Source of the DNA: Thalassia testudinum
Lineage: Eukaryota > Streptophyta > Magnoliopsida > Alismatales > Hydrocharitaceae
Assembly: GCA_037157565.1 (NCBI GenBank)
Contig: JAZHRO010000019.1
Span: forward strand, 64,664,501-64,728,500
Reading direction: 5' to 3'
Length of the DNA: 64,000 bases
Made by a program: the position numbers and the translations under genes. Positions 11,570-50,830 of this stretch are shown one piece after another. Numbering within the stretch: position 1 is the first letter of the stretch; the number at the start of each line of letters is the position of its first letter. The notes under the pieces were generated by a model. The model saw only the letters and a program-made list of their open reading frames with translations, ran no database searches and had not been told where the DNA came from.

Positions 11570-13010
11570 AATTAAGTCTAATAGTTTAATGGTGAATTGA
11601 GATCTGATTCTTTCGTCTTCAGGGAAGTGATTTAGTACACTCTCACTTAGGTCATTCTCTTAATCTTTTTAAATTTTTTCTGACTTTTTCGTTTTGAGAT
11701 TTTTTTGGTCTTTTATTACTTTTTTTTTTTTGTCTTTTGAATAAGTAGGAAGGTAGAGAAATAATAGGAGAGCAATGAAATGAAAGTTCAACTTTTATTG
11801 CATTAACAAAAAGGAAAATTGCATAAGGAAATGAAAATACAATCAACAAGATGACATTGGATACACATGAAGGGGTAGGAAGCTCACGACATGGAGGACA
11901 ATGGTTGTTTGGGTTTAAGGAATTAAAAAGATAACAAGAAATACAAATGAATCAAGGCCTCTGAGTAAGGATTCCTAGGTTGATTTATACTAAATAAAAG
12001 AAAACATGAGAAAAAGTTTATTACATTCAACAAAAAGAAAAGAAGATGGTGAGATGGAGATGGCATGTGTGTAGGAGGTGAGTGAGATGATGGTGATCAT
12101 GTAGAGTGGTGGATGGTTAGCCACAAGGTGGTGTGGTGAAAGGAGCACAAAAATCAAGGAAATAAAAAGTACATGAAGAATGCTAGAAGAATAAAAGGAC
12201 ACTAATCTACTTGCATTGAAATAAAAAGAGCTACGCTACTAGGAAAGAAGAAAAAGGAGATGAGAAGGAAAGTCCCATGCCAGGAGATGGCTTGTAGGAT
12301 GGGTGGTAGCTAGATCATTAGTCCAAGGACCTACACCACCTCAACATTGCAGCAACATCGTGGAAGAGCACTCATGGCCGTCCACCATTGCCATGGAGGG
12401 GAGAGAAGTGGAGAGTGGAGAGGGTGGTGTTGGGTAGAGAATGGAGAGGAAGGGGGTGTTTTGGCTATGGAGGTAGGTTTTTATAGAGTTTAGGCTAAGG
12501 TATGGTGCACCTAGGGATGGATTTAGGCATAGGATAAGAGGCACAACTTAAGGCTTTTAGAGGCATCTAGCATACGTGCATGCTAAGGGTGGTGTTTGGA
12601 GTTTAATTGGGTATCCTAATGGTGGTTTAAGGAGGTGAAAAAAGGCTTGGTCATGAGTTAATAGGTTAGGAATTGAAGATTGGACGTCTAAAACTAAATC
12701 TAGATGACTTGAATGTCCAAATTGGAAGTCTTGGAAGTGTTTTGGAGGATCCAATTTGGAGGTTGGTCTGGTTTGGATGCCCAGAACATGTTTTGGACTT
12801 CCAATTTGTCTGCTTTGGACATCTAGAGAGTGTGTTGGACATCTAGACTAAGGTTGGGTGAGTTGCACGGGTTTTGGAATTGGGTTTTCAGTGTGTTGTA
12901 GGGTTTTGGATGTCTAGAATTGTTGTTGGACATCCAAAACCATGTTGGAAGTGTATATTGAGGTGTTTTGTGATGGGTTTTGGATCCTAGGTTCTAAGGG
13001 ATTAATGGGA
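11570..13010 (-). mobile_element. probable LTR (group G), minus orientation
   Basis: A TATA box (TATAAAA in the complement of about 12480-12490) faces left. Upstream of it, in that sense, lies a palindrome ladder (12683-12934). The left end carries an AGGGAAGTG block like the AGGGAGGC blocks near the 3' ends of LTRs D and E, suggesting an Athila/Tat-like relative. I could not identify exact termini or a target duplication, so both boundaries are approximate. Confidence 0.4.
12683..12934. repeat. palindrome ladder TTGGACGTCCAA type (group G)
   Basis: GACGTC-type hexamers begin at 12683 (GACGTC), 12776 (GATGCC), 12796 (GACTTC), 12818 (GACATC), 12838 (GACATC), 12909 (GATGTC) and 12929 (GACATC). 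Spacings within groups are 20, 22, 20 and again 20 bp. Flanks are TTG...CAA, so the ancestral unit was probably TTGGACGTCCAA. Most changes are C to T or G to A at the central CpG. Confidence 0.6.
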
Positions 13011-14672
13011 GATGATTAGGGACAAGACAGGTGATCTAAATGGGGGTTTAGATAGGGTCTTAGGTTGGGTTATGCGCATTTTGTGTACACAAGTGTGTAT
13101 ATTTGTGTGGAGATGTAGTGTGAACCTGTGTACTTGCATTAAGTGTGTGTGCACATGGATTGGAGTTATGGTGTGTGTGAATGTGATGTTAGACATGCAT
13201 TGGTTTGCCTTCTCTCTTCCTCTGTCTGGATCTTCTTGCTACTGTCTCCCTTTCATCTGTTGTGGGAATTGCTTGATGCAGTCTTCACATATCCGCCTAC
13301 ATTTTCATTTCAGCACAAATCTCGCTCCTCTCCTATGGGCCTGCATACATAAATTAACAATATTTGTAACATGTCCATAGAACTGGAGAAAATAGGTTAA
13401 AAATATACAAAAATGCATATGCGTGATATGCATAAAATACATGCTCTATTTACAATGTAAGCTAGGTATTTAGCCTAATCGAGTCATTTTAGGACTTGTG
13501 ATTGCTGTGTAATCAATGTGCTATCAGATGCTCTAAACTATTTAGATCTCTAAGTTAACACACATCAAGTTATTTAATCTAGCTAAGTACGTAACCCTAA
13601 TCGTACTAAGGGACTTACGTCATTTAACTGAAAAATAATCGAATTGTTTTATTTAGATAAAATGTAATCATATTACAAGAAACTTGAATGACTCTCTTAA
13701 GGCATAGAAATTCCAACACTGCTTGCTATTGAGATAAAGCCTCTAGCTCCAAAGGATGAGGTGAGGTTGATAATGGAGATGGTTGAGATGTCCACTTAAC
13801 CAATTCCTAGGTGAGGTAGTCCTATTGAAAGGCCTCTAGCTCTTGATGGACTACAAATTGTCGTCGAACAACCTACAAGGTGAGATGTGCCTTCATCTCC
13901 TTAATAGCCTCTTCTAAGGATGAGTGGAATCTAGCCCAGGATGAGGTAATCTTCTAGCAGTGCTCCTCGATATTAACATAAGGGATAGGAATTGAACCTT
14001 CTTCATCAACTCTATTCACATATTTGAGATAGCAATTCAAAGCTGGGAGTTGGTCCCCTCCAACCTCTCATTATTGGCCTTAAGATTTGACTCGACTATT
14101 ATAGGGCATTGCACCTCTCCTGAAGATCCTCAAGCCACCCACGAAGGTCATGAGCCCCCTCCTCTGCCTGCATTGGTAGCATAGCCTCTGCATCCACCTG
14201 ATCAACGAGTTGTTGCTCATGCAGTCAACCTCCTCTTGTGCTTACCCTCTTGACATGGGTGAGGATGGAGGCGACGTAAGGGGTGCACGAAAGAAGGTGC
14301 TAACTGATCTTCTCGAATTACACCAGTAGACAAGTGGAGTAACACATCAACCAAGGAAGATCAAAGGAATAGTGGACATAGATGGAATCTTACCCTATGG
14401 AGGATGCCCATGTATGTATGCTTATCTAATACCCTAAGGGCTTTGACATAGGATTGAGAGAACTCATAGGCCCAATTAAGGCCAACGTCAAGTAATTCCC
14501 TTCACACCTCTTTAGGAAATCCTTAAGGCTCATCCCCTTCATGGACGACTACAAGTTATAGGTTTGATTGTTTGAAGGGGAAGGCTCTCTCCCCTCCCAC
14601 TTTTGCATTGAGAGCTTGCAAGAGGGGGGACTCATCGCGACGACCAAGAGAAAGGATTAAACTACACTCTAC
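13011..14672. other. no recognisable gene
   Basis: 13011-13380 holds overlapping chance frames rich in GTGTGT and TGTGTA words. 13700-14660 reads like decayed minus-strand coding sequence rich in Leu, Glu and Arg, but with many stops and no domain I can name. It may belong with the Asn/Tyr-rich pseudogene to its right. Confidence 0.35.
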
Positions 14673-15432
14673 CTAGGGAGGAAGATGATTGAAGGCAGAA
14701 GGGAGGCCCTCATCACTATTTACTACTAATGTCAACCAAGGAACAAGATGTCCATGAGTGTCATGGATGACCTCCCCCTTGTGTACATCCACAACTTTAA
14801 GGGAAGGACAAGGAGAAGTTCCACCCCTAGTCTTCATCGTGTCCTTTGCAATGGAGTAGAAAGGAAGAGTTAATAAAAGGGAGTTCACATTTATATGGTG
14901 GGTTTGGATATATAGGATGAGATATGGACGAAGAGAAATGTGATTGATCATAATTTGACTCTCTATTTGCATATTGAGATTGAAAGTTATAGTAAGAATC
15001 ATTCAAATAATGAAGCTGATATCTAATCGAATTACTTGTGGAGAGATTGCCATAATGCAATCCATTCAAGATGGCTTGAATCATATACAACTTAAGTGAA
15101 TAAGTAATTGACTTGATCAACTATGGTTGTAGGAAGGTGTAGTTTGATTAAATTAATAATTGGAGCTTGAGTCAAAATTAGGGCCATTAATCCAACCTTA
15201 ATTTGATGAATCATAAGGGATATGTGGGTTGGGTGTCGACATTTGATAGCTTGGACTTAAATCAAAGTTAAAGCTTTTTGTAAGCATAGTTGAGAAAGAT
15301 CAAATGAATTTGGATGATCTCTTAGTAAGTTATTGTACCCATATGAATTCATCAAATTTGAATTATAAAGAGTGAATGATCCATAAGGTTTAGGTGAAGA
15401 GTCATTCACAAAAGTATTAATAGATGGGCAGT
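14673..15432 (-). pseudogene. decayed Asn/Tyr/Ser-rich coding sequence with internal repeat (left part)
   Basis: Minus-strand frames read as Asn-, Tyr- and Ser-rich protein (about 14827-15120: SSSISHPIYPNPPY; about 15260-15430: VNDSSPKPYGSFTLYNSN, then LMNSYGYNN and LRDHPNSF). The last block recurs in 18045-18180 on the other side of LTR A0 as VNDSSPKLYGSPTLYNSN, then LMNSYEY and SRDHPNP. The composition resembles the start of the reading frame in element E, but no family is recognised. Probably a dead ORF of a non-autonomous element; several stops and shifts. Confidence 0.45.
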
Positions 15433-17998
15433 TGTTATGATCCGATTCTCGAATTCCTACATAACTTGACACCAACTAGCCTAAACTAATCCCAAGACGT
15501 AATTGTCCAACGATAGCCAAAAGTAGGAAATAAACCACATTCACATATGTAATATAACTAGGTAGAATGAAAAATAAAATAGTAAAGGAAAGTAAAGCAA
15601 CTGTCTCAAAAGTAGTACATGCCACCACAACAGAAAATAAAAAGTAACAAGAACAGTAATTTTTAATTCCAATACTCACAACTATAGTAGTAACAAAAGA
15701 GTTGAAAAGAAAACTACTACGACTAGACTCGGCTGGGCTATGCTCCCTTTACAGCCGAAAACTTAGGCTGTTCAACTTTTGATCCTGAATAGGGTTACGA
15801 AAAGACGGAATCAGCGAACGGTAAATAAAATGGTGTTTACATTATTTATGTGCAAGTAAAGTAAAAACAATGAGATTTTATTCTCAATTTCATTTCTCAT
15901 TTATATATTTCTAATTCATCTATTTCACAAGGTATCCAAACATTTCTTGATCTTACTTGTTTCTCATGGAAACGATCTTGATTGCAGTCTTTTCCGTGGA
16001 GTAGTAGGTACACGTAGTGCTCTTCTAACCGAGAGTGTCCCTCGCAGTAGTCCTACATCCAGTCAACCACCTCGAGATCACTGTCGTGACAGTGGTAATT
16101 ACGACATGCGTGATAAGCGCACGGGTAATTACCCCGCATTGGTACGCGGTTAGTTGTTTCCATTAATAAGTACGCCTAAGGTACAACACGAAACAGTATA
16201 GAACCTTACCTTCTCATAACAGGGGTCTCGTCCCTCAGAACCAAACAGCGATCTCGCCCCTCCACAGTCCGCATACCCTCATCCGACTACTTTGGTTTGT
16301 CCAGTAGACCTAACAAAATCGATGTAGGTGGCTAGCTTAATCCGGACCCCGTAAGGTGGCTAGCTCCCTCTATACACTAGTAGCACGCTTCGATATCACG
16401 TACGCGAGAGCCAACATAAGTCGATGTAGAGTAGCCAATCCTAACCACGAGTCTCAACCTAAGGGCAACTAGCTCCTCTATACACTAAAAGGGACAATTG
16501 CTTTCCTTGATATTGGGTACACAAGGGCTAGCTCACTTCCCGTCTACATCCTATATTCCTTTTATACACAGGAGTTCTATTCCTAATTCCCCGTAAAGTT
16601 CATGTTCATACTCATCTCATTTATCTATATTCAGATCTCATGTTTTATAACTCGTTCCTCATCCATATACAGGAAGCTCGTGTTGTCACCATTCAATTCT
16701 CAATCATATACATGCAGCTTGTGATTTCACTATTTAATTTCTCATTCACATAAAAATAGCTTGTATTTTAACATACATAAGTAAACAGAGTAACTTAGCA
16801 TCAAACTCATACATTTCTACCTTATGGTTCATTCCATATTGTAGAGTTTCAATCAATTTAATATAAGCAATCATATTCTTATTCACATGTTAACAAATGA
16901 ATTAAACTATTCTACCGGATATCACAGAAGGAATGAGAGCTTGAACCGCAGATCTCGTCATCTCCGTAAGCTCCGAACACGCCACTGGCTAATAATCTAT
17001 AGCGATGATTAATTTACATCAGATGAGGTCAAAACAGAAGGTATTCAACATGAACATGTAGAGAAACTCGAGTGGAAAACAGTACTTTGTTTGCGAAAAT
17101 CTAATTCCATTTAGACCCTAAACGGGCCAAAAACACGATTACTGTCCAAAATCAGACGTCAGATCTCACCTTATGTTTCCTGCGATATCCTCAGACATCT
17201 GAATTCCTCTGCGACCATCTGAAAGCAGCTCCAGACATCGAACAAAGCTTCCGATAGTCTGGAAGTACTTTCGGACATCTGACGACGTGATCAGACGTCC
17301 AAAAATGCCTGAAAAAGTGCACCGCGCGTCTTCCCAAAGCCCTCACCTACATACGAAAACCTGCAGACCCATTAATGGCCAAACATCTCCTATGTTACAA
17401 TCTACATGACGAAAAGTAACGCAAGAAGATACGTGCCTCGTGCAATATTATACCTTCAGATGTCTAGCTTTAGTTTCGGACATCCTGGTACCTCTCCAAA
17501 TGTCTGGTCAATGCTCCAGACACTTGATATTAGAAAACTTTCAGTACCAGAACATTCTCCACAACACTCCTCTACTCGCAACGCCGCCTGTAGCGCACCG
17601 TAGCAACTTCAACAACTGCAGAGGGCTGGGAGGTTGCCTCCTCGAGCCCCTCCTCGTGCGCGTGCCCACCATCGGTCGCGCGAGCTCCGCCGAGCTCTCA
17701 AAGGTCCTTCGACCTTCACGCTTTTTCTCTCTCCATCTCTTTCGTCACTCTCGTTCTCCCTCACCACAGCCGCACAGGAAGGATGCTGGAGGTGGTTGGT
17801 GGTGAGCAGGTAAGGGTGGTGAGAAGGGAAGGTTTAAATAGAATGGGGTTAGGGTTTAAGGTGAGGGATGTGGAGAGAGAAGCTCTACGCACTGCCCGCA
17901 CCCAGAGTGCAAAGGAATGTACAAAAATTCCTACTTTTAGATATTCAGACTGAAACTCCAGATATCTTATCCAACTAAAAAGACAACGTATCATTTCA
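15433..17998 (-). mobile_element. solo LTR A0, about 2.57 kb
   Basis: Related along its length to LTRs A1-A3: it begins TGTTATGATCCGATTCTCG, contains the shared CTTGATTGCAGTCTTTTCC block (about 15970), and ends TCATTTCA. In its own sense it runs leftwards and ends in the ...GTTACA-like terminus of Tekay/Del-type LTRs. Candidate 5-bp duplications GCAGT (15428-15432) and GCAAC (17999-18003) agree at three positions, so it is probably old. A TATA-like TATTTAAA lies in the complement near 17835. A ladder of GACGTC-type sites begins at 17194, 17214, 17234, 17254, 17274 and 17294, exactly 20 bp apart. Confidence 0.65.
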
Positions 17999-25424: not shown

Positions 25425-25444
25425 TGTTATGAACGCGCGCTCCA

Positions 25445-25546
25445 GACGTCTTTTAAGACGTCTGGGAGGTGGCCCAGACGTCGGACAAGACGTCTGGAAT
25501 CACTTCCAGACGTCGGATAAGACGTCTGGGATCATTTACAGACGTC
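25445..25546. repeat. GACGTC ladder 1 of A1, alternating 12/20 bp
   Basis: Perfect GACGTC hexamers start at 25445, 25457, 25477, 25489, 25509, 25521 and 25541. The intervals are 12, 20, 12, 20, 12, 20. Most are embedded in CAGACGTCTG. The ladder sits right inside the LTR's 5' terminus (U3). Confidence 0.95.
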
Positions 25547-26012
25547 TGGAAATCGGTTATTTTGGCACGATTGTTTCGTCTGCACGCCTGAGCGCGCAGA
25601 CCTGCGGAAATACCCTCTCTCTCTTTTTCCCTCTCCCTCCTGCGCCCTCTGCGTGCTCTCTCTCTCCTCCTCGCGCGGCCTTAAAAGGCCACGCCCTCTC
25701 CCTCACTCCCGTCACCTCTGTCTCCTTCCTTTTCTCCTTCCAGCCAGTGCGCGAGAGCGAGCGTGAGGGTGAGCGGTGGCGGCGACAGCCGCGGCGGGTG
25801 CAGGAGGAGGTGCTGCGCGGGGGAGGAGGCGTCGGCCGTGAGGGCTCGAGCCTGCCGGGGCAGCGGGAGCCGGTCGGCGGGGGCGCAGCGGGTGCGGAGC
25901 GACGCGGGAGGCCTGTTGCAGCTCGAGCAGCAGGCGGAGCACTCGCAGCGCGGCCGGGCGTCGCGAGCGGAGGGCGAGTCGCGCCCTGGTTCTGGAAACT
26001 TTTCCAGAATCA

Positions 26013-26334
26013 GACGTCTGGGCTGATAGCCAGACGACGGGCACGACGTCTGAAAGGTGAGTTATTTTCTGTCTTCTTCCTTTTCTTCGACTGACCGTAC
26101 TGAGAGAGAGAGGAAATGGGTACACTCAGGTTCTGAGACTCGCATCCAACGCGAATCAGACGTCTGGCTGTAGTGACAGATGACGGGAACGACTTCTAGA
26201 CGTCCGGGGTGACCGTCGGACGTCTGGGAACTAGGCCAGATGCCCCTGCAGGCTTCTGGACGTCTGAGAGCCCACGCAGAGCAAGGTAATTCCTGATCCA
26301 CTTTTTAAGACGTCTGGAAGAAGTTCCAGACGTC
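26013..26334. repeat. GACGTC ladder 2 of A1
   Basis: Sites start at 26013, 26033 (GACGAC), 26045; 26159, 26179 (GATGAC), 26191 (GACTTC), 26199, 26219, 26239 (GATGCC), 26259; 26309, 26329. Unmarked ones are perfect GACGTC. Intervals within groups are 20 and 12, with one of 8. Confidence 0.9.
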
Positions 26335-26621
26335 TGATTTTGCACTGTTTCATCGTTTTCGACCCGTTTAGGGCCCGTTCAGGTTCCGTTTTCCGCGTTT
26401 CGAGTTGCGTTCTTTTCAGAATTACATCCTCTACCCGTCTACAGTAGCTGTACACTATTTTGAGACACTCCTTATGTTTGATCCTTGTGATAGGACCCCG
26501 TTTCGTTGCAGTCTCAGGGGTCGCGGAGGCACGCGGGATTCCCGACCACGCCCCCATTACTCCCGTTGTACCTGGTAGAGTGGCTTTAAGTATAATCTGT
26601 TAAATTATGAAACCATAAATA

Positions 26622-26765
26622 GAACCTAGGACATTGCATGAATCCTAGGAATGAGAAATAGATTGAATGGTAGCTTCCTAGGGTGTTGCATGAATCCTAG
26701 GGCTGGAAAACTAGATTGTATGATAGATCCTAGGATATGGCATGAATCGTAGGACGAGAAAACTA
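26622..26765 (+). repeat. three ~60-bp tandem units in A1
   Basis: Units of the form CCTAGG...GCATGAATCCTAGG, then an AAACTAGATTG-like part, recur at about 26625, 26680 and 26732. The mirrored copy in A2 is at about 33950-34090, so the repeat is part of the LTR family. Confidence 0.75.
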
Positions 26766-26997
26766 GTGGAATGTATGAATACTGCAGTCTTGAAAAATGT
26801 GGAAAGGAAATACTAGCTGCCTGTGAATTGAATTAACAGCTGCCTGTTATGAATAAATAAATGTGATTAAGAATATGGTTTGTAAGAACGTGAAACTGAA
26901 AAGTGAAACCTGGATGTTCTGAGTTAAAAGAGCTGGAACCCTACGGGGAATTAGGAGTAGAACTCCTGGAAAGTGAATGGAATAGAATTGGGGAAGT

Positions 26998-27215
26998 GAG
27001 CTGGCCCTTGAGTACGGAGTACCAAGGAGAGCGACTGTCCCCCCTATTTAGTGCAGAGCGGAGCCAGCCGCCCCAGGGACCCGGGGTTAGGACTGGCCAC
27101 TCTGTACCGACTTGCTGGCCCTCATGTACGTAGTACCGAGGAGAGCTACTAGTGTAGGGAGGTACTAGCTACCCCACGGGTCCCGGGGTTCTGCTAGCCT
27201 CCCACACCGACTTGT
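26998..27215 (+). repeat. diverged ~110-bp tandem duplication in A1
   Basis: GAGCTGGCCCTTGAGTACGG (26998) and TGCTGGCCCTCATGTACGTA (27112) start two units. Each continues with AGTACCRAGGAGAGC and ends near CCCGGGGTT and CACTCTGTACCGACTTG/CACACCGACTTG. Also present inverted in A2 (about 33500-33710), and recognisable in A0 and A3. Confidence 0.7.
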
Positions 27216-28136
27216 TAGGCCCACTAGGGCAAACCAGGGTAGTCAGGCGAGGGTGCGCGAACTGTGGAGGGGCAAGGCCCCTGTTTGGTTACTGTGGAGG
27301 GGTTGGACCCCTGTTACTGAGAGGGCTCTGCCCTGTACTGGTTTCGTGCTGTGCTTTGGGCGCACCCGTTAACGGAAACAACTGACCACATGCCAGTGCG
27401 GGTTAGCTACCTGTGCATTTATCGCGCGTGCCGTAGTGACCGTTACGCTTGTCCGTGACCTTGGGGTGGTTGACTGAGAGTAGGATCACCACGGGGGACT
27501 CTCCCGGCCAGGAGAGCACCACGTGCTACTTCTACTGTTCGGAAAAGACTGCAATCAAGATCGTTCCCACGAGGAACATTCGAGATCAAGTGAAGGATCT
27601 GAGAAATAGATAATTTGTGAAACAATAGAAAGGCGTAAATAAAGGAAGAAAGAAATTAAAATAGCTACTGTACACTTTACTGTTTCTTTAGTTTAGCTGC
27701 CACTCTACTCAGCGTTTTTCTGACGTGTTACACTCGTTACCTTTTAGGACCAGGTGTTGAGCAGCCAGGGTCAGCGGCTGCAGAGGACGCTGGGCCGAGT
27801 AGGGTCCAGTAGAGTTACCACTGTTCTCTTGTACCTCTTTTTGGTTCCACAGTAGTGAGTAGTTCTTGTTTCCGCTGTACTTTTCTTTACCTGCAGTTCA
27901 TATTATGTTATGAATGTTGTTCTACTGTTGTGGTGGTATATACTATTGTGGTGGTATATACTGTAGTGGTTTCTTTCCTTACTGCTGTATTTCTTTACTG
28001 TTAGTTATATTCATGCTGAATGTGGTTTATTTTACTGCTCTTTTGGTTACTTCCTCGTTGGACGACTAGGTCTTGGGATTAGTCGAGTCGGTCCGGTTCT
28101 CGTGTCTCGTAGGGACTTGGAAATCAGGTCGTTACA

Positions 28137-28141
28137 GTGTG
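28137..28141. repeat. target-site duplication GTGTG (right) of LTR A1
   Basis: Perfect copy of 25420-25424. Confidence 0.9.
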
Positions 28142-31973: not shown

Positions 31974-31978
31974 AACTC
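31974..31978. repeat. target-site duplication AACTC (left) of LTR B1
   Basis: Matches 37518-37522 exactly and restores the continuity of A' when B1 is removed. Confidence 0.9.
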
Positions 31979-34371
31979 TGATGAGAGCCTCATCATGAGC
32001 CATAACTAGCTCATTTTGATCCACTAAAGAGAATAAAAGCTCCTACATAACTTAGAGGAGGGCTTAATTGGAGGAATAAGTGTTCTGAGAAGAAAATATG
32101 AAATAAAGGTTAAAACTGCAATTTTACCATTGCAGTACATAAATGGGATTTATAAGAGGCAAAACATAGGTTAAATGGTCTGAATAAGAGAAAAAGTGGG
32201 TTGGTTCAATCAGAAATGGGTTTATGTGTAAACTAGGAATTAAATGACATCTTGTAACCCTAAAACAGACCCGCTTAATTCAACAGGGTTCCGGTTAGGA
32301 TAAAAATCAAGTAAACCCTCTAAAAATCATGGAAAAATATCTCCTAGGGTTTAGAACATTTAATTTGGCCTTTGGAACCTAGTTTGACCTAGATTAGGAT
32401 CCTAGCTCATCAATTGACCTAATTTGGGTTTTCATGCAAAATGTCCAGTTAAACGTGGTCAAACCTAAAATCCAACTTTACCATTGGATTCCTTAGGTGC
32501 AAATTAGGTTTGTACCAAAATTTGGACTTAAGGGGAGGTCATCTTGACCTACTTTGCAAATGAGTACACCTAATTACATTTTGATCTCTGTAACGACCCG
32601 ATTCCCGAGTCCCTACGAGACACGAGAACCGGACCGACTTGACTAATCCCAAGACCTGGTCGTCCAACGAGGAAGTAACCAAAAGAGCACTAAAATAAAT
32701 CACATTCAACATGAATATAACTAACAGTAAGAAAATACAGCAGTAAGGAAAGAAACTACTACATTATGTACCACCACAACAGTAGAACAACATTCATAAC
32801 ATAATATGGAACTGCAGGTAAAGAAAAGTACAGCGGAAACAAGAACTACTCACTACAGTGGAACCAAAAAGAGGTACAAGAGAACAGTGGTAACTCTACT
32901 GGACCCTACTCGGCCCAACGTCCTCTGCAGCCGCTGACCCTGGCTGCTCCACACCTGGTCCTGAAAGGTAACGAGTGTAACACGTCAGCAAAACGCTGAG
33001 TAGAGTGGCAACTAAAACTAAAGAAAATAGTAGGGTGTACAGTAGCTGTTATGTTCTGTTACTTTATTTACGTCTTTCAATTTTCTCACGATTTCATTTA
33101 TTTCTCAGATCCTTTACTTGATCTCGAATGTTCCTCGTGGGAACGATCTTGATTGCAGTCTTTTCCAAGAAGTAGAAGTAGCACGTGGTGCTCTCCTGGC
33201 CGGGAGAGTCCCCCGTGGTGATCCTACTCTCAGTCAACCACCCCAAGGTCACGGACAGACGTAACGGTGACTACGGCACGTGCGATAAACGCACAGGTAG
33301 CTAACCCACACTGGCACGCGGTCAGTCGGTTCCGTTAACGGGTGCGCCCAAAGCACAGCACGGAACCAGTCCAGGGAAGAGCCCTCTCAGTAACAGGGGT
33401 CCGACCCCTCCACAGTAACCAAACAGGGGCCTTGCCCCTCCAAAGTCCGCGCACCCTCGCCTGACTACCCTGGTTTGCCCCAGTGGGCCTAACAAGTCAG
33501 TGTAGGAGGCTAGCAGAACCCCGAAGTCCGTGGGGTAGCTAGTACCTCCCTACACTAGTAGCTCTCCTCGGTACTGCGTACACGAGGGCCAGCAAGTCGG
33601 TACAGAGTGGCCAGTCCTAACCTCGGGTCCCGGGGGCGGCTAGCTCCGCTCTGCACTAAACAGGGGGACAGTCGCTCTCCTTGGTACTCCGTACTCAAGG
33701 GCCAGCTCACTTCCCCAATTCTATTCCATTCACTTTCCAGGAGTTCTACTCCTAATTCCCCGTAGGGTTCCAGCTCTTTAACTCAGCGCATTCCGGTTTC
33801 ACCTTTCCAGTTTCACGTTCATACATCCCATATTCTTACTCATGTTCATTTATTCATAACAGGCAGCTGTTTAAACGAATTTACAGGCAGCTATTATTTC
33901 CTTTCCACATTTTCCAAGACTGCAGTATTCATATATTCCACTAGTTTTCCCGTCCTAGGATTCATGCCGTATCCTAGGATCTATCATATAATCTAGTTTT
34001 CCAGCCCTAGGATTCATGCAACACCTAGGATCTATCATTCAATCTATTTCTCATTCCTAGGATTCATGCAATGTCCTAGGTTCTATTTATGGTTCCATAA
34101 TTTAATAGATTATACTTAAAAGCCACTCTACCGGTTACAACAGGCGAACTGGGGGCGTGGTCGGGAATCCCGCGTGCCTCCGCAACCCCCGGGACTGCAA
34201 CGGAACGAGGTCCTATCATAAGAATCAAACACAAGGAGTGTCTCAAAATAGTGTATAGCTACTGTAGACGGGTAGAGGATTTAATTCCGAAAAGGGCGGA
34301 ACTCGAAACGCGGAAAACGGAACTCGAACGGGCCCTAAACGGGTCGAAAACGACGAAACAGTGCAAAATCA

Positions 34372-34720
34372 GACGTCTGGAACTTCTTCCAGACGTCTTA
34401 AAAAGTGGATCAGGAATTACCTTGCTCTGCGTGGGCTCTCAGACGTCCAAAAGCCTGCGGGGGCGTCTGGCCTAGTTCCCAGACGTCCGATGGTCACCCC
34501 GGACGTCTGAATGTCGCTCCCGTCGTCTGGTACTACAGCCAGACGTCTGATTCGCGTTGGATGGCGAATCACCGAACCTGCGCGTACCCATCTCTCTCTC
34601 TCAGTACGGTCAGTCGAAAGGAAGAAAGAAAGACGGAAAAACTCACCTTTCAGACGTCTGGACAGTCTTCCAGACGTCTCCCTCGCCGTCTGGCTATAAG
34701 CCCAGACGTCTGATTCTGGA
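34372..34720. repeat. GACGTC ladder of A2 (mirror of A1 ladder 2)
   Basis: Many CAGACGTCTG copies, the first two 20 bp apart (CAGACGTCTGGAACTT then TTCCAGACGTCT). Same arrangement as A1 26013-26334 in reverse. Confidence 0.85.
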
Positions 34721-35176
34721 AAAGTTTCCAGAACCAGGGCGCGACTCGCCCTCCGCTCGCGACGCCCGGCCGCGCCGCGCCTCGTGCACCTGCTGCTCGA
34801 GCCGCAGCAGTCCGCCCCCGTGTCGCTCCGCGCCCGCTGCGCCCCCCGCCGGCCGGCCTTAGCAGCCTCGGCGAGTTCGCCCTCACGGCCGAGTGCCTCT
34901 CCCACGCGCAGCACCTCCTCCCACGCTCACCGCGGGTGTCGCTGCCGCTGCACCCTCGCGCTCGCTCTCGCGCACTGGCTGGAAGGAGAAGAGGAAGGAG
35001 ACGGAGGTGACGGGAGTGAGGGAGAGGGCGTGGCCTTTTAAGGCCGCGCGAGGAGGAGAGAGAGAGCGCGATAGAGGGCGTAGGAGGGAGAGGGAAAAAG
35101 AGAGAGAGGGAATTTCCGCAGGTCTGCGCGCTCAGGCGCGTAGACAAAACAATCGTGGCAAAATAACCGATTTCCA

Positions 35177-35278
35177 AACATCTGGAAATGATCCCAGATG
35201 TCTGGTCCGACGTCTGGAGGTGATTCCAGACGTCTGGTCCGACGTCTGGGCCACCTCCCAGACGTCTTAAAAGACGTC
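35177..35278. repeat. GACGTC ladder of A2 (mirror of A1 ladder 1)
   Basis: Sites start at 35177 (AACATC), 35197 (GATGTC), 35209, 35229, 35241, 35261 and 35273. Intervals are 20, 12, 20, 12, 20, 12. The phase is identical to A1, and the two non-perfect sites differ by transitions. Confidence 0.92.
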
Positions 35279-36852
35279 TGGAGCGCGCGTTCATAACAGT
35301 CCCTATCTTTTGAAAGCCATTACCTAAACCCCCCTAACTTCCTCGCCACTCTTACAAGCAGGTCCCTCCGCCATTATTGGGGAGAGATCCTACTCTGGCG
35401 AGGAATAGAGAGGGAATACTCTCTGATTCCTCAGAGATCCCCTCCCAGATTTGGAAGGGAGATTCCCTGAGGAATTCCCTTCCATCTGAACTCAATCCTG
35501 ATCCCAGATTTGCACCCAATCTCTCGTGCGAACGCACGAGAGATTTGGGTCTCTTAACTACCTTCCATCTCTGGCGAGACGTCGGTGGCAGAAGGCTTGC
35601 CCTCCACGCACCAAAAGCTCAGCCAGCACCTATAAATTAACCCCCAACTCCGGTCACACCTCCTCAGCTCGACTTGGCCGAAATTCTACCACAATTTCCT
35701 CTTCTTCTCCTCCGGCCAAGGGGTCCAGCGAGCTCTGACGAGCCCCCCTTCTCTTCCTCGTCGCTCTGCCACAAAACCAGTGGCAGAGCCGTCCTCCTCA
35801 TCCTCCTCCGCGTCGTGCAACACCCGCGCTAGCCGCCCTAGCCCCGTCGTCGCCGTCGTGTTCCTCCACTGGATGCTTTCTTCTCTGACGACAGCAGGTA
35901 CTGCCGGTCGCCTTCTCACCCCCTTCGTCCCTTTAGTTAGGTTAGAACTGCTCTTCTCTATCCCCTCTTTCATTTCCCTCATCTTATTTCATCAAACGCT
36001 CCTTGACCGCCGCTGTCCACCACCATCTTCATCTTCGGCCACCCTCCGGCGAGACGCTCCCAACACTCCGCAGCCCCACATGCCTTGCCGACCACCGCAT
36101 AACCTCCGCCTCACTTCACTGAATATCCTCTGCTCATCCACAGACCCTCTACACCGCCACAACAGCCCCCCGACCAAACCCATCCGGCCGGCCACAGGGC
36201 AACCTAGGCACACATGCCTAGGCCACCCCGCAGCCTGCCACCTAGCACCTCACCTTCGCCATGACACGACGAAGGTGCTCCTGTGGTCTGATTAAGCCGC
36301 AAGGCTCTTTTTGTGTCAGGCAAGTTTCATGCTCCAGCCGCCATTAACGGTGACTCGAGGAAGCTGCACGCTTGCTTCAGGCTGCAATGCTCCAGGAGCC
36401 CAGGTCCAACTAACTCGGGGAGGCCTCGCGAAGTCATTTGTCCTAGTAAGTGGCGCCGTGAAGCCTGCAATGCTGCAATTGGAGAACGCTCTCCTGCGGG
36501 CGCGCGCCAAAGAATGATGGAACAATAGTCCCACCTCGGTAAGCTGTAGGGTGCTGGAGTGGGTTAAATTGATTTTATGCTATGCGCTTGTTGCCTCCGA
36601 TTACACTTGGGGTGAGGTCCCTCACTTATACTTACCACCTCGTCCGTGAGCTCACCACACGAATCTGGCGACTCGACCCGACACCCTCCTGAGCACTCCT
36701 CGCGCACCACACCCACGCCGGTGAGCCTGGACCCAGGCGCGCGACCCGACCTGTTTACGTGGCTCTGGGAGAGCGTGCTGAAGAGTGATATACAGAGAGA
36801 GCGAGAGATGCGGGTGTGGGTAGAGGGATAGGTTTTTCTCCTCTTTAGTTTG

Positions 36853-37236: not shown

Positions 37237-37517
37237 GAAACATCTTTTAAGATGTCTGATCCTATGATCAGACGTCCAAATTCCTTCTTTTTGCCACAAT
37301 TGACTTTTAAACTCATGCATTTATATATTTTGAATTAAGTTTTGAGTAATTAAGTGCTCAATTACATTCTTGAGATTAGTAATAAATTCCAATTGCTCCT
37401 TGTGTTCGACCTCGGATACTTAGGTTTTCGAGTAATAAATTTTTATTTATTGACAACGCTTGATCACCTATACTACGACGTAACTAACTATTAAAACACG
37501 ATCTAGCCGCGTCAACA

Positions 37518-37522
37518 AACTC
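37518..37522. repeat. target-site duplication AACTC (right) of LTR B1
   Basis: Perfect copy of 31974-31978. Confidence 0.9.
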
Positions 37523-38285
37523 TCCTCAGGCTATTGCAGAGGAGTATGGACGTCTGAGGCAACAGCAGGAAGTGAGAGGTAAGATCTGATGTCTTTTAAG
37601 ACGTTTGGGACTAGTCCTAGATGTCTGATTTTGGATAGTAACCGTATTTTTGGCCTGTTCAGGGCCCAAACGAAATCGGATTTCCGCAAATGAAGTACCG
37701 TTGTTTTCCACTCAAGTTTCTCTACGTATTCATGTTGAGTACCTACTGTTTTGAGCTCGTCTGATGTAAATTAGTTGCTGGTACAGGTTACCAGCCAGTG
37801 GCATGTTCGGGGCCCGTGGAGACGACAAGATCTGCGGTGCGGACCCCCATTCCTCTCGTAATACCTGGTAGAGTGGTTTAATTCATTTATTAAGATGTAA
37901 ATAAAAAATATCCTTGATTAGATTAAATTGATTGAAACTCTAGGATGTGGAATAAACCCTAGGGTTAAAATGTATGAGCCTGATGTTGAGCTATACTACT
38001 CACTTGAGATGCATGTTTAACTAAATTGCTAGTAATGTGTATTAGTTGATTTATGAGTTTCCTTGTCTGATATGAAAACACGAGTTGCCTACCATGTAAT
38101 GGAAAAATGGAGAGTTGAATAATATGATCCGGATATTGATAAATGAGATGAATATGAGCATGAACCCTATGGGAAATTAGGAGTAGAACTCCTGTGTATG
38201 AATGGAATCTGGTATGTAGACGAAAAGTGAGCTGGCCCTTGTGTATATGATACCAAGGAGAGCAATTATCCCTTTTAGTGCAGAG

Positions 38286-38470
38286 GTTGTGTGGGAGCGT
38301 TTGTCCCGCACGCTGTGCGTGCCTATTGGTGCACATATGCATCCGAGGGTGAGCGTGGGCCTATGTGGGCCTGATTTGGGCCTAAATAAATGTGACTTAG
38401 TGCTACTGAACCAACCCCGTTGGGGACACTGATCCTGCGAAAAGGTAGCATAAAAAAATCCAAATCATCT
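38286..38470. other. short spacer between A' and A3
   Basis: 185 bases not matching other LTRs, GC-richer than its neighbours, containing GCACGCTGTGCGTGC (a partial inverted repeat) and GGGCCTATGTGGGCCTGATT repeats. Origin unknown; possibly what remains of the locus into which both A-type elements inserted. Confidence 0.4.
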
Positions 38471-39608
38471 TGTTACAACTCGATTTCTAGATCCCTACAG
38501 AATCCGAGACCGGCTTGCCTCGACTAATCCCAAGACCTAGTCATCCAGCGAGAAATAACCAAAAATAGGAAATAAACCACATTCACAAATGTAATATAAC
38601 TAAGCATAAGGAAAAATGAGACGTAAAGGAACAATAGAGCTAAAAGTCTCAATAAAGTAATACATGCCATCACAACAACACAACGGAAAAGAAGATAGAA
38701 AGTAACAAGGTAAAAATAGATGTCTATTACTCACTACAACAGTAGAAATAAATGGGCTGGAAGGAAAATACTACAGCTGAACTTGGTTGGGCCCAGCATT
38801 TTCTGCAGCCAGAAACTCAGGTTGTTCAACTCCTGGTCCTGAACAAGGTTACGAAAAGACAGAGTCAGCGAACGCTGAGTAGAGTGGTGTTTACATTAGT
38901 TATGTACATGTAAGGTAAAATAAGTAATCAGGTTTTATTCTCATTTCTATTTATCTCATTTATGTATTTCTGGTTCATTTATTTCACAAAGGATCCAAGT
39001 ATTTCTTGATCATGCTTGTTCCTTATGGGAACGATCTTGATTGCAGTCTTTTCCGTGGAGTAGAAGGTACACGTGGTGCTCTCCTAGCCGGGAGAGTCCC
39101 CCGCGGTAGTCCTACACCTAGTCAACCACCCCAAGGTCACTATCGCAACGTAGCGGTGACTATGACGCGTGATAAGCGCATGGGTAGCTACCCCGCCTGG
39201 CATGCAATCAGTCGTTTCTGCTAGTGGGTACGCCTAAAGTATAGCACGGAACAGTATAGGGCCTTGCCCTCTTAGAACAGGGGTCTCTCCCCTCAAAACC
39301 AAACAGGAGTCTCGCCCCTCTACAGTTTGCGTACCCTCGTTCGACTACCCCGGTTGGCCCAGAGGGCCTAAAAGTCTGTGTAGGTTGGCTAATCTTAACC
39401 TCGGGCCCCGTGAGGTGGCTAGCTCCCTCCCTACACTAGTAGCACACCTCGGTACTACGTACGCGAGGGTCAAACAGGAATCGGTGTAGAGTGACCAGTC
39501 CTATCCCGGGGTCTCAACCCAAGGGGTGGCTGGCTCCCCTTCTACACTAAAAGGGATAGTTACTCTCCTTGGTACCGTGTACACAAGGGCCAGCTCACTT
39601 CTCGTTTA

Positions 39609-40904
39609 CATATTGTAGGATCTAAAATATGGAATATATGGCTATGCGCACAAACACTCAAGAACAATATTAGTAATAACAAGAAAGATTTGCACAATCA
39701 ATTCAAACCACAAAAGGATACAAAATGTATAGTGGTTCCCCTCCCTTGGGTACTCCACTACCTAAGCCTCCCAGCTTAGGGTTTTTAACCTGATTCTCTC
39801 AACCCCGAGAGAATCAATTTACTAAATCGAGGTAATTAACGGGTTACCTCAACCCAAGTACAATAACGGGTTTGATACAACCCAACGAGCAACAAGCTCA
39901 AAATATAAATAAGAACTTGTGTAAGAGAGAGAACTCTTACAACATGAATTCCTACGCCTCTCAACAATAATTAAAATAATATTACCAATTTGAGAGCTTA
40001 GGATAGATGTGAATCGCTTCGTAGATGCGTGAGAAAAACACGTCGTTGAGCTTGTAAGAATGTAGAGAGAGTGAATGGCAAGCTTCTTCTTTTTCTCTTG
40101 AAAATATGGTGGAAATTTGAAATATTGCTCTAGAAATTTTTCTTCTCTTTTCTTATATGCAAACTAAGGGTCCAAGGGTTTATTTATAGAGTTATGACCT
40201 TAGTGGGTCGTCTAGTAGACGTTGGGGTTTAAATCCCAATGTTCATATAGCAAAAATTAATTTTCTAGCCATTCAGTTTTGAGCCAATGCCTACCTGGTA
40301 CCGGTACTAAAGTGTGGGTATTGGTACTCATTGCTTCCAGATTTGAGTTTCAAACTCTTAACACAAATCTGTAACTCACTTGTATCGGTACTCTTGGTTA
40401 GTACCGATACTCATTACCTCCAGTACCGGTACTGATCATGAGTATCGGTACTCACAGGGTACAGGTTTGTTTCTTTAAAAAACCCAAACCTGTAACTCAC
40501 ATGTACTGGTACTAAACTTTAGTACCGATACTTGTGGGCTAACAAGTACCTTTTTTAAGTGATTTAATCAATTACTCTTTGAAAATGATCGCAATATTAA
40601 TCCTAATTTATCTCTAATTATTTTTACGATCTAAGTTATATTCCTTTGTTAAGAGGTATATACAATCTATAAATAAAAAATCTAAACTAGAAACACTAAA
40701 GGTCGAAGATGATCTTCTCCTCCTCAATTCTTCCTTGTCATCTTGCCTCCTTCTAATCATGATCTTCTCCTTTTCATCAAGCCTCCATCATTTCCTGTTT
40801 GCCTTGATCTTCACCTAAATCTGAAAGAACTCAATTGCAAACATTAATCCATAATAATTTTGTTAACACCAAAACAAGATGTGGAAAAAGGTTCCAACAC
40901 ATAC
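39609..40904 (-). mobile_element. solo LTR S (copia-like) with target duplications
   Basis: The LTR proper is 39614-40899. On the minus strand it begins TGTTGGAACCTTTTTCC and soon has TTGTTTTGGTGTTAACAAAA, a copia (SIRE-like) hallmark; it ends TAGATCCTACA. Flanks CATAT (39609-39613) and CATAC (40900-40904) differ by one transition. Removing it rejoins A3 at TTTACAT...AGATTCCTTT. It contains a GTACCGGTAC palindrome array. Confidence 0.85.
40298..40531. repeat. GTACCGGTAC palindrome ladder in LTR S
   Basis: Ten-base sites start at 40298 (GTACCGGTAC), 40318 (GTATTGGTAC), 40382 (GTATCGGTAC), 40401 (GTACCGATAC), 40423 (GTACCGGTAC), 40442 (GTATCGGTAC), 40503 (GTACTGGTAC) and 40522 (GTACCGATAC). 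Intervals within groups: 20; 19, 22, 19; 19. The middle quartet mirrors the 20-22-20 quartets of LTR L although the palindrome differs. Confidence 0.92.
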
Positions 40905-42446
40905 CAGATTCCTTTCATACACAGGAGTTCTACTCCTAATTCCTCATAGGGTTCATGCTCATATTCATCTCATTTATCAATATTCGGATCATATTATTCA
41001 ACTCTCCATTTTTCCATTACATAGCAGGCAACTCGTATTTTCATATTTGACAAGGCAACTCATAAATCAACTAATACACATTGCTAGTAATTTAGTTAAA
41101 CATGCATCTCAAGTGAATAGTATAGCTCAACATCAAGCTTATAAATTTCTACCCTAGGGTTCATTCCACATCCTAGAGTTTCAATCAATTTAATCTAAGC
41201 AAGTATATTCTTTATTTACATTTTAACAAATGAATTAAACTATACTGGGTATCAAGGGTGGCATGCGGGCCTGCACCGTAGATCTCGTCGTCTCCGCGGG
41301 CCCCGAACATGCCATCGGCTGGTAACCTGTACAAGCGACTAATTTACATCAGACGAGCTCAAAACAGTAGATACTCAACATGAACACGTAGAGAAACTTG
41401 AGTGGAAAACAACGGTACTTCATTTGCGAAAATCTGATTCCGTTTGGGCCCTGAACGGGCCAAAAATACGATTACTGTCCAAAATCAAACGTCTGGGACT
41501 AGTCCCAGACATCTTAAAGGACGTCAGATCTTTCCTCTTACTTCCTACGGCTGCTTCAGATGTCTAGACTCATCTGCAACAGTCTGAGGAGAGTTCTAGT
41601 CGTCTGACCTTCCTTCTAGTCGTCTGGAAGTGTCGTCGGACGTCCGGTGAAATGGTCAAACATCCAAAAGTGCCTAGAAAGGCGCATCGCATGCCTTTCC
41701 AACTCCCTACAGCTACGTATGAAGACGCAGACCCATTTTCAGCCAAACCACCCAGCACTACGGTTTGCATGGCGGAAAGTAGGGTAGGAAACACGTACCT
41801 TCACGCGATAATATGCTTCTAGGCGTCCAGCTTCAGCTCCGAACGTCCTGTTGCCTTTACAGATGTTTGGTTGACCCTCCAGACGTCTGATACTGGAAAT
41901 TTTCTAGTACCATAACCTCCTCCGCGACGCTGCCTTCCTCGCAGTGCCACCTGCAACACACTGCAGCAGCCTCAGCAGCTGCAGAGGGCCGGGTGGTCGC
42001 CTCCCTGAGCCCCTCCTCCTCGCGTGTGTGCTCGCTGCAGCTCGCGCGAGCTTCGCCGAGCTCCTTCGGCCATGAACCTCCCTTCACGTTCTTCCTTCCT
42101 CTCTCTCCCTCTTGTTCTCCCTCCCTCACCCTTCCTCTTTCTCGCTCTCCATCCTAACCCTCGTCGCGGTTGCATAGGGACGATGGCTGGAGGTGGTTGT
42201 GGCTGGTGGAGAGTGGCGTGGGTGAGGGGAAATGGGCATTTAAATAGAAGGGGATTAGGGTTTAGGGGTAAGGGGTGTGGAGGAGAGAGAGAAGCTCTGC
42301 GCACCGATCGTGCGTCGAGCATAAAGAACGTACGATATTTTCCCACTTTCAGACGTCTGGCCCTTCACCCTGACGTCCAGACAGACGTCTGACGGTTAGT
42401 CCAGATGTCTTAAACACCCCAAACAGGCACCGGGTCATTTCATTCA

Positions 42447-42612
42447 GCATGGCATCAGTGCCATGTCCCTCCTACGAATCCTTCGATCAATTATGATCTA
42501 AAGTTTAAATTGATTTTAAAATTGGAAACTAGATGCCAATAGCTTTTCAGCGAGCTTTTGTTTGCTCTATTTGGTCCATGGAGTCACTCGGAGTCATTCC
42601 TTGAAGATCTGC
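42447..42612. other. short spacer between A3 and B3
   Basis: 166 bases with no recognised feature; may be flanking DNA of both insertions. Confidence 0.4.
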
Positions 42613-46532: not shown

Positions 46533-47684
46533 GGCTTATATCAGATGTCCGTAGACGACCTCAGACGTTTGATAAATAGACGTTGAGTGTCGTTTGATGC
46601 CAAATCGCTTTTGTTAAGATTTCTAGCCGTTAAGCACTCTTGGGAATTAGTTCTCACAGAGTTATTAGTTTCCAGATGTCCGGGTCATGTGCCAGACGAC
46701 CAACTTATCGTTTGATCACTTTGACTTAAAACCCTGTTTAGGTCTGATGCAAGTCAGGAAGGAAACCCGTCTATAATTAGACATCTGATTTAGTTTCCAG
46801 ATGTCTTATACATGACTTCCGGACGTTTGATCTTTTTCCCAGACGTCTGATGATCCTGTCAGAATCATTAATGATTCTGATTGCAACTTGATTTACCTTA
46901 TGATGATCCCCAATGGCTACCTAAGGCTTCCAAAGCCTTCCTAGGCCTTCCTAAGCATTCTATAAATAGGAGAGTACCCTTTCCTTGTAAAGACACACCA
47001 AGGAACACCTAGAGAAACTACTTTCCACTGTATTGTGTCCAATTGATCATTAGAAGAGTTGTTGCTCTCCAAGCCTTAGTTCTACATCAAGAGAGCATCA
47101 TCCAGCTGAGCACCCTCTCTCCCTCCGCGATTACAAGAGCGACGAAGTGCCGCCATATGGTTCACGCATCCGTGTCAAGCCGACGCACTTCCAGCAAAGG
47201 GAAATAGTCTTTACCTATAGTAGCTAGGTTTATCTTTGTGGCTCTATAGGTCTTGTTTGTAATTTATCTTTGTTATTGTGTTGAGTATTCACCTTGCGAA
47301 TTCCTGTCACCATCGAGGGACAAAATACTCATGAAGAGAAGGGGTTTGAGGAACACTACCCTCGTACTTGTAGCGTGGTTGTATTGAGGTCGAACTACCC
47401 TCGTTAAAGTAGTTCTTTAGTGGATTTGATTGACTCGATCGATCGGGAAATCCTAACTCGAGAGGGTTAGGTGGTGGTTTTCCTGGTTTGGGTTTCCACC
47501 TAAAAATACTTGTGCAAATTGTGTGATTTCTTTTTTTGTGAGATTGTTTATTTTATTTCGCTTATTTTTCGCATCATGCAAATCTCAACCCCACCGTAGA
47601 GAATCTTCACATCACGTTCGCCACATCCGCACGATCCTCCCGAGCATTTTTGACGTGTTTGAGAGGCCGTCATCTTCTTTTTAG

Positions 47685-48660: not shown

Positions 48661-48664
48661 CTAC

Positions 48665-48913: not shown

Positions 48914-49010
48914 TTACCCTTAGCCATAGGATCCCCAACCACCTCCATCTTCCCATCTTAGCCCTCCATTTCAAGAGTCACCTTAACCTCCCATCCTACC
49001 CTATAAAAAG

Positions 49011-49020
49011 ACAACTACCC
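49011..49020 (+). promoter_or_regulatory. TATA box of LTR C
   Basis: CTATAAAAAG, preceded by a C-rich stretch and followed by a leader with CACCACC, the usual LTR promoter layout. Confidence 0.7.
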
Positions 49021-49878: not shown

Positions 49879-49883
49879 AAACC
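49879..49883. repeat. target-site duplication AAACC (left) of LTR L3
   Basis: Identical to 51637-51641. Confidence 0.88.
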
Positions 49884-50292
49884 TGTTGGTGCTAGAGCAC
49901 CACGATCATTTGTTTTGATGATAACAAAACACGTGTTATTTAACATTTGCAATTTGAGTCCTAGATCTCAGGTCAATTGCAAATGTGGACGTGTTTAGAC
50001 GGAGTTCAAGCTCGCATCCAGGACGGATTGGAGGAGCTTGACGGAAAACAGAGGAGGTTCGCGTGGAGCGACAGATTGAAGATAGAAGACAAGAAGAATA
50101 GGATAGATTCTTTTTAACCATTTCATGTACTTTTATCTTTATTTTTCTTGCTCTTTATTTTCCTTAGAAATTATGTTAAAGAGCCTCAAAGAACCCTAAC
50201 AGTAGTCCTAGGAACACCGGCACAACCCTAGGATACTTAGGTTTTCTGTAGAATAGTTAGAAAACCAATATAGGGTTCAAACAGAATTTACA

Positions 50293-50830
50293 GACGTCTA
50301 ATTCCCAAATCAGACGTCTGATAAAGCATTTTAAGACGTCTGACTGTTGTTTCAGACGTCTGATAACTGTTAGGCTGGACATAGTTAGTTCTGTCTGATG
50401 AAATCAGACGTCCAGACCTTAGACCAGACGTCTTAGAAGACGTCTGATGAATTTGCCAGACGTCCAATTAGTGGACCGTTGGCTGGCTTCGCAAACAGTC
50501 AAGAATATGACCGTTAGAGCCTTATCAGACGTCCATAGGACTTTACAGACGTCTGATAAATGACCATTTTTCCTTGGCTGACCCAAAATCTCTTCTCAGA
50601 GATTTTCTAGCCGTTGCAACGTTTGGAAATCAATTCCCACAGTAAAAGTAGGTTTCCAGACGTCCATACTTAGTTCCAGACGTCCTGTATGTCGTCTGAT
50701 GGACTTACACAAAAACCCTGTTTAGATCTGATCCAAGTCAGGGAGAGACCCGCCCAAAATCAGACGTCTGACCGTTTAATCAGACGTCTTAAAGTGAACT
50801 TCCAGACGTCTGATGCTAGAATTAGACGTC
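50293..50830. repeat. GACGTC ladder of LTR L3
   Basis: Perfect GACGTC starts at 50293, 50313, 50335, 50355; 50407, 50427, 50439, 50459; 50528, 50548; 50659, 50679; 50763, 50783, 50805, 50825, plus GTCGTC at 50691. Intervals within groups: 20, 22, 20; 20, 12, 20; 20; 20, 12; 20, 22, 20. All lie upstream of the TATA box at 50944. Confidence 0.95.

Follow-up and report, generated by a model that had tools for sequence, protein, structure and literature searches.

The 64-kb stretch of the Thalassia testudinum genome analysed here (the window) appears to be made up of plant-type transposable elements nested in one another, and several of its long terminal repeats (LTRs) carry regularly spaced arrays of a 10-bp palindrome, CAGACGTCTG, or of a different word, GTACCGGTAC. 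All counts, kinship tests and conservation tests below refer to the window. Its longest stop-to-stop open reading frame (ORF) has 352 amino acids, and a Pfam scan of 50 ORFs of at least 90 amino acids, out of 102 listed, gave few matches. These were a NADH dehydrogenase fragment near 2.2 kb, part of a hAT element near 8 kb, a match below threshold at 43.3 kb, and fragments of retrotransposon RNase H and integrase around 55 and 63 kb. An original prediction, made from the letters of the window, had described the same spacing rules in several of these LTRs. Site coordinates are given here as the starts of the 10-mers; the earlier numbers referred to the inner hexamer, 2 bp further inside. The LTR called S is the exception, its earlier numbers being those of the 10-mer starts themselves.

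Arrays and their spacing

The LTRs L1, L2 and L3 carry quartets of CAGACGTCTG-like sites with 20-22-20-bp spacing. The first part of L1 (44175..44768, plus strand) has a quartet at 44576/44596/44618/44638 (44576-44647), and the LTR resumes at 46533..47600 (plus strand) with a further array (46542-46849) and the TATA box. Nested in L1 is the solo LTR L2 (44799..46527, minus strand; target-site duplication CTTTA), whose arrays (45572-46096) include a quartet at 45572/45592/45614/45634 and a second one at 46045/46065/46087 whose fourth member, at 46107, is weaker, with 3 mismatches. The array that has been preserved best, with 16 sites at 50291-50832, lies in L3 (49884..51611, plus strand; CTATAAATAG at LTR position 1060), with quartets at 50291/50311/50333/50353 and 50761/50781/50803/50823 and alternating 12- and 20-bp steps at 50425-50457. 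The copia-like solo LTR S (39614..40899, minus strand; CATAT/CATAC flanks) has a GTACCGGTAC-type array at 40298-40531, in which the quartet 40382/40401/40423/40442 is spaced 19-22-19 and additional sites stand at 40298/40318 (20 bp) and 40503/40522 (19 bp). Four TTGGCGCCAA-like palindromes at 48665, 48711, 48743 and 48904, in steps of 46, 32 and 161 bp, lie in a part of the window not assigned to any element and possibly form another small array.

Members of a second group, family A, combine 12- and 20-bp steps or form plain 20-bp ladders. The solo LTR A1 (25425..28137, 2713 bp, target-site duplication GTGTG) is assigned to the minus strand from a TATA-like box and from LTR ends matched to a consensus; its arrays lie at 25443-25548 and 26011-26336, with 12/20 alternation at 25443-25539. 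A2 (32588..35298, plus strand) has arrays at 34370-34712 and 35175-35280 and the same alternation at 35175-35271. A0 (minus strand) consists of an array-bearing, promoter-side part (31095..31985) with a ladder at 31903-31963 and of a remaining part (37518..38290) separated from the former by later insertions. A3 (38468..42449, ends approximate, plus strand) is broken by S (about 39614-40899) and has arrays at 41486-41889, including a ladder at 41597-41637, and at 42350-42411. A decayed family A LTR at 15432..17960 (plus strand) retains 10 sites from 17153 to 17628, some of them 20 or 40 bp apart. A1 (26619-26773) and A2 (33941-34086) also contain a 51-52-bp tandem repeat with ATCCTAGGAT, apart from the GACGTC arrays.

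Two further pieces were not placed on a strand. Group G (12774..12936), whose host element was not identified, consists of a quartet at 12774/12794/12816/12836 followed by 12907/12927, that is, 20-22-20-71-20, with its word TGGACGTCCA imperfect in all copies. B1 (37237..37278) is an isolated 12/20 triplet (37237/37249/37269) with a degraded first site, inside an unidentified insertion. Thus, the predicted quartets, 12/20 steps and ladders were all located, with the reservations given for the fourth site in L2 and the first in B1.

A scan for CAGACGTCTG allowing up to two mismatches, with CpG decay uncounted, found 137 sites, 121 of them in the array-bearing elements and the B1 insertion and 16 scattered over the other 42.4 kb. 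Pairs within one element at distances of up to 30 bp fell at 8 (1), 12 (12), 20 (50) and 22 bp (7), i.e. 69 of 70 at 12, 20 or 22 bp, and the classes 9-11, 13-19, 21 and 23-30 bp were empty. When only the core was required (GACGTC or its CpG-decayed forms, arms free; 120 sites), the pairs fell at 9 (1), 12 (11), 20 (33) and 22 bp (3), 47 of the 48 again at the same three distances. Longer distances were mostly sums of the basic steps (32, 40, 42, 52, 60, 62, 64). The distances fit a period of 10.0-10.5 bp (vector length 0.69-0.72), the best single period being 10.2 bp with a vector length of 0.716 (0.694 at 10.5), figures obtained without a control run.

De novo palindrome detection, which the original prediction had called for, was run within the window and, for spacing of this kind, ranked CAGACGTCTG first among 1024 ten-base palindromes (one mismatch; 62 pairs in total, 14 at 20 bp) and GTACCGGTAC second (8 pairs, 3 at 19 bp); the next ranks among the best 40 of the 1024 were a CAGACGTCTG variant and AT-rich repeats. 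A separate, general de novo search yielded 102 pairs of similar palindromes, whereas 15 shuffled versions gave 8.5 on average. The 27-mer AGACGTCTG-N10-CAGACGTC, with up to two mismatches, had 78 matches (both strands counted) and none in any of 100 shuffles, and the version with N8 had no match in the window. In 5000 rounds of random displacement of the sites, at most 10 bp each, the observed count was never reached in five of six LTRs; in the sixth, A3, it was reached with P 0.0002. The spaced palindrome arrays are therefore real and well beyond chance. No phased array was found in plasmid collections (megablast) or in viral contigs (10-bp-spacer pattern), and an 18-bp-step (N8) decoy pattern picked up 2 viral and 34 genome-contig stretches, none with a phased array.

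Kinship and promoter context

The LTRs had been said to belong to several unrelated families with no other similarity. The latter claim fails. Self-comparison gave 90% identity between A1 and A2 across 2.7 kb and 87-90% between A0 and A3; the 15.4-18.0 kb LTR matches A3 at 69-77%, and A1/A2 match the other family A copies at 72-77% over LTR parts outside the main arrays; judged by these alignments, A0-A3 and the 15.4-18.0 kb LTR are one family. L1, L2 and L3, mutually 72-76% identical, likewise group as one family. S is, by sequence comparison, kin to L outside the array: it matches L1 and L3 at 74-75% over ∼ 50 bp from ∼ 25 bp inside the LTR (E 0.007-0.008; no L2 match reported), and with the words masked it resembles all three L copies over ∼ 200 bp near the 3' end (z 5.2, 7.7 and 9.4). 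For A against L/S we detected no kinship. The array-side segments of A1, A0 and A3 (at most 1100 bp) were compared with L and S in 24 masked tests, with 20 shuffles each; z did not exceed 2.7 in 23 of these, and the single raised value (A3 reverse vs L1, z 4.8) was absent with L2 and L3. The group G array and B1 could be placed in neither lineage, the highest z in 28 masked comparisons with L, S and A being 2.8. The several unrelated families are thereby reduced to two lineages, A and L with S, and two unplaced pieces. A TTTAAGACGTCTG-type flank is common to A, L and B1.

Family A is probably a Ty3/gypsy LTR, with ends of the TGTAACGACCCGA type, which we take to be the Tekay-like consensus. 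No coding domain was found beside an A LTR in the ORF pieces after A3 that were scanned (30 of 37), and neither the ORF that spans the A1 array nor the one following A3 found a relative in protein searches. A tRNA-like primer-binding site after A3 (42450) is weak, sits in a small inverted repeat and was not used. The inverted array-bearing arms also brought to mind the subterminal repeats of CACTA/En-Spm transposons; this idea was dropped because the arms are LTRs in opposite orientation and a CACTA end of the expected kind was not found.

The arrays sit upstream of the TATA box, with an extra downstream set in A. In L, the TATA box CTATAAATAG lies at LTR position 1022-1075, some 0.61-0.62 of the way along LTRs of 1662-1734 bp, and is preceded by sites at distances of ∼ 650 to 120 bp. 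The S box, at position 711 of 1286, has its sites 342 to 118 bp upstream. The closest site to the box is 118-127 bp away in L1, L2, L3 and S. In family A the evidence for the box is weaker: a TATA-like TTTAAATAG (A0/A3) or CCTTTTAAGG (A1/A2) is found near 2450-2485 of about 2700, and an upstream set of sites extends from 753 to 332 bp before it. Both this set and the downstream one are alike in the two subfamilies.

The arrangement in L and S is close to that of the Sirevirus LTRs, whose palindromic repeated motif (RM) boxes, with an element-specific word and no reader protein named, are described in the RM sections of Bousios et al. (2010, PMC2829016). There, 11 of 13 listed elements have at least eight RM copies per LTR, clustered upstream of a mid-LTR TATA box, mostly in the upper half of the LTR and with the first copy 200-400 bp in. 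Here, L1, L2 and L3 have 13, 12 and 16 phased sites and S has eight. All eight sites of S fall in the upper half, starting at position 369; the corresponding fractions in L1, L2 and L3 are 9/13, 8/12 and 12/16, with starts at 402, 433 and 408, marginally past the published limits, and in both L and S a mid-LTR TATA box follows the array. As in Sireviruses, the L and S words are dyad-symmetric, multicopy and variable by element. In the window, GGACGTCC, the core of the word GTCGGACGTCCGAC of the Sirevirus Usier, is present at 31923 and 41637. Near the 3' end, where a poly-C integrase signal is expected ∼ 21 bp from the LTR end, L2 has CACCCCCTCC at ∼ 15 bp and none was seen in S. Over the array, where Sireviruses would have a CpG island, the observed/expected ratio of CpG in L and S is somewhat higher, 0.64-0.92 vs 0.55-0.84 in the rest, at a GC content of just 0.40-0.44. 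By copy number, TATA box and, marginally in L, site position, the likeliest identity of L and S is that of Sirevirus LTRs, with arrays that are RM-type boxes as already published. The proposal of an undescribed class of LTR array is thus not supported, since a 2010 account already has palindromic motifs preceding a TATA box in the middle of the LTR.

There are also differences. According to the RM sections, a CGG-CCG core is common to all RMs except that of Tnd-1 (PMC2829016), and the words of L and A are without it; because Tnd-1 also lacks it, the core is not a strict requirement. RMs were termed Sirevirus specific and contrasted with other copia elements in the same source, whereas family A, although array-bearing, does not look like a Sirevirus: its arrays occupy LTR positions 1783-2695 and its TATA-like box about 2450 of 2713 (orientation inferred), so that neither the upper half nor the middle of the LTR is involved. 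The RM sections give no spacing rule. In maize, palindromes of the Sireviruses Ji, Opie and Giepum, with a different word, CACCGGACNNNGTCCGGTG, have been linked to small RNA (PMC5311732, PMC10760457, cited from excerpts), and one palindrome is common to Copia elements and Helitrons (excerpt of PMC10760457), a precedent for sharing across superfamilies. A literature search on the array words themselves returned, judged by title, nothing on plant LTRs.

Tnt1 and Tto1 have U3 repeat boxes, which are likewise short cis motifs repeated within the LTR promoter, but in few copies, and we know of no phased palindrome ladder in either element. PMC2829016 notes that box I of Tnt1 is symmetrical. Literature searches and the RM sections of PMC2829016, a scope that leaves aside the main 2016 maize paper, gave no description of fixed spacing, of a word shared as between A and L, or of a word changed under a kept geometry as between L and S. 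Thus, the strict spacing, the word common to seemingly unrelated groups and the word swap under nearly kept geometry look new.

Conservation, proposed reader and alternatives

For the L family, words were defined on one copy and then compared between the other two. In all three arrangements the words were better conserved than the spacers: 0.781 (125/160) vs 0.659 (230/349), 0.833 (100/120) vs 0.652 (240/368) and 0.846 (110/130) vs 0.722 (296/410), differences that 12/547, 2/527 and 7/547 of the mask rotations reached, respectively. The 20-bp units of L had no indels in six comparisons, with 2.3-5.2 expected in each; a fair expectation is about half of that, as units had to be whole in one of the copies to be selected and gaps may be shifted during alignment. 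Spacers within one L LTR were no more alike than shuffled ones. The motif CpGs of L, over ordered copy pairs, showed 36 decays, 2 other changes and 32 kept, so that change is almost solely deamination, as expected of silenced copies. For A1 and A2 (words 0.931, spacers 0.895; no indel vs 1.6-1.8 expected) the copies are too close to discriminate. As far as aligned copies can tell, the L family supports the predicted selection for a geometry, and the empty spacing classes of the array LTRs suggest it; the A0, A3 and G words, considered below, do not extend this support.

The two arms of the palindromes are not equally kept. In 20-bp pairs the inward arms (TG..CA) are intact in 47 of 66 cases and the outward arms in 25 of 66 (Fisher 2e-4, related copies included). 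Pairs at 12 bp show the reverse, with outer arms intact in 19 of 22 and inner arms in 3 of 22, because the inner arms there are the outer arms of neighbouring 20-bp pairs. This pattern indicates that the sites are organised as 20-bp pairs, with 12 and 22 bp as the links between these units. The base beside the inner arm is G in 9/10 cases in A1/A2 and in 4/7 in A0/A3/G, and A in 8/13 in L.

The reading that we consider rather probable is that the arrays are promoter-linked cis-regulatory platforms on which a dimeric, probably host-encoded protein binds on the same face of the DNA. Each 10-bp palindrome would be the site for one protein dimer, and the working unit would be two palindromes 20 bp apart, two turns away from each other and on nearly the same helix face, with the inward half-sites the most important. 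Links of 12 or 22 bp would join the units into repeats of 32 or 42 bp, approximately three or four helical turns, and cooperative binding by many dimers could open, activate or de-silence the adjacent LTR promoter. A host factor seems likelier than an element-encoded one, given that the same word is used by A and L but not by S, the kin of L. Given the strict spacing grammar, the reader would probably be a dimer in side-by-side pairs that could be sought with a defined bait (one-hybrid, DAP-type assays).

Several observations weigh against this interpretation. Family A, unlike L and S, has a second set of sites beyond its TATA-like box, at 111 to 237 bp downstream and near the LTR end. The words of A0/A3/G show no excess conservation: words vs spacers are 0.673 vs 0.705 and 0.695 vs 0.673 in the A0/A3/G comparisons and 0.850 vs 0.884 between A0 and A3, and one indel inside a unit was found in three of six A0/A3/G comparisons (0.5-1.9 expected). 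Within-LTR spacer likeness is 0.457, 0.454 and 0.447 in A1, A2 and A0 vs 0.32-0.34 in shuffled spacers (0.370 vs 0.329 in A3), so that duplication built part of the A1, A2 and A0 arrays. Plain 20-bp ladders drift from one face at 10.5 bp per turn, and the arrays fold strongly as RNA. With regard to identity, L and S are called Sireviruses from LTR features, one of which, the CGG-CCG core, is missing from CAGACGTCTG in L and replaced by CCGG in GTACCGGTAC in S; the gypsy identity of A depends on the LTR-end consensus, and the ORF pieces scanned after A3 (30/37) gave one sub-threshold Pfam match. Roles in binding, methylation and expression are predictions derived from the letters.

The alternatives are not all mutually exclusive of this platform or of one another, and their likelihoods need not sum to one. 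The arrays could act as RNA, their transcribed palindromes forming hairpins for small RNAs or serving RNA packaging or dimerisation. Folding z-scores of -8.3 (L3 array stretch) and -7.9 (A2 downstream array), vs -1.8 in one L3 control stretch, agree with this, but palindrome arrays fold inherently and such scores are expected under any model. Palindrome-rich maize Sirevirus LTR regions are reported small-RNA hot spots (excerpts of PMC5311732 and PMC10760457), and inner arms covary (27/33 pairable vs 23.6 shuffled, 0.003, a value inflated by related copies); the outer arms, which would also pair in a hairpin, do not (10/33 vs 11.4), and hairpins need no fixed 10-bp spacers, yet 19 and 21 bp are empty for the CAGACGTCTG word. 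We regard an RNA function as rather unlikely. A little less likely still is an element-encoded, VANC-like anti-silencing protein as the reader, with A parasitising or sharing the protein of L; this is a special case of a protein platform and conflicts with our interpretation over host origin only. VANC targets in Arabidopsis VANDAL elements are also short motif arrays in non-coding DNA whose motif shifts between related elements, much as L and S change the word and nearly keep the geometry, and VANC6 motifs occur in AT9TSD1, which is unrelated to VANDAL, a precedent for sharing (excerpts of PMC5735166 and PMC10398659). However, VANC is described there for VANDAL elements, which are DNA transposons with the motifs YAGTATTAY and AGTTGTCC/AGTTGTAC; the excerpts give no fixed spacing, neither paper contains the word 'spacing', and PMC10398659 does not mention palindromes. 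No intact internal region was identified in the window. No candidate gene was seen and no such protein appeared in the Pfam scans of selected ORFs, which means little because the LTRs here are solo or broken.

Regular spacing might instead be a functionless leftover of tandem or inverted duplication of an ancestral unit. The 32-bp tandem repeats of A1 and A2, the alike spacers of A1, A2 and A0, the lack of extra word conservation in A0/A3/G and the likeness of the two L quartets in direct and inverted order fit such an origin, whereas in L the words and lengths are kept although the spacers resemble one another no more than shuffled ones do, the units lack indels, and A and L have identical steps without other likeness; on balance we find a pure leftover improbable. 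Transfer of a unit between A and L by recombination, which the original prediction had raised as the spread of a cassette, appears the most improbable of these. The shared TTTAAGACGTCTG-type flank allows the transfer of a single unit and the A3-L1 value points the same way, but the other 23 of 24 masked tests of A against L and S show no similarity, the L1 signal is not repeated in L2 and L3, and the order of links differs between A and L, which leaves little support for wider spread.

A bolder extension of the platform interpretation is, in our view, possible and somewhat doubtful. Two unrelated lineages would have settled on one palindrome, one 12/20/22-bp grammar and one dimeric reader, and S would have swapped the word under 19-22-19 spacing. 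The arrays would then be a two-level code, a fixed assembly shape and a changing address word, by which elements could share an activator or anti-silencer, hijack one, or abandon the common one. If true, one word in two unrelated lineages would show retrotransposons converging on, or stealing, one regulator.

Other features of the window

Outside the array-bearing LTRs, an ORF at 2166-2477 (plus strand) is similar to NADH dehydrogenase (PF00146, E 2e-7) and is perhaps an insertion of organelle DNA. The 352-amino acid ORF lies at 59279-60337 (minus strand) and has three metagenome relatives (67-87% identity) and no Pfam family. The retrotransposon RNase H/integrase pieces are spread over 55168-63518 on the minus strand, with repeated segments at 56 and 62 kb, and an exact TGGCGCCGTTGCC, presumably a primer-site form, is present at 62143 (minus strand).

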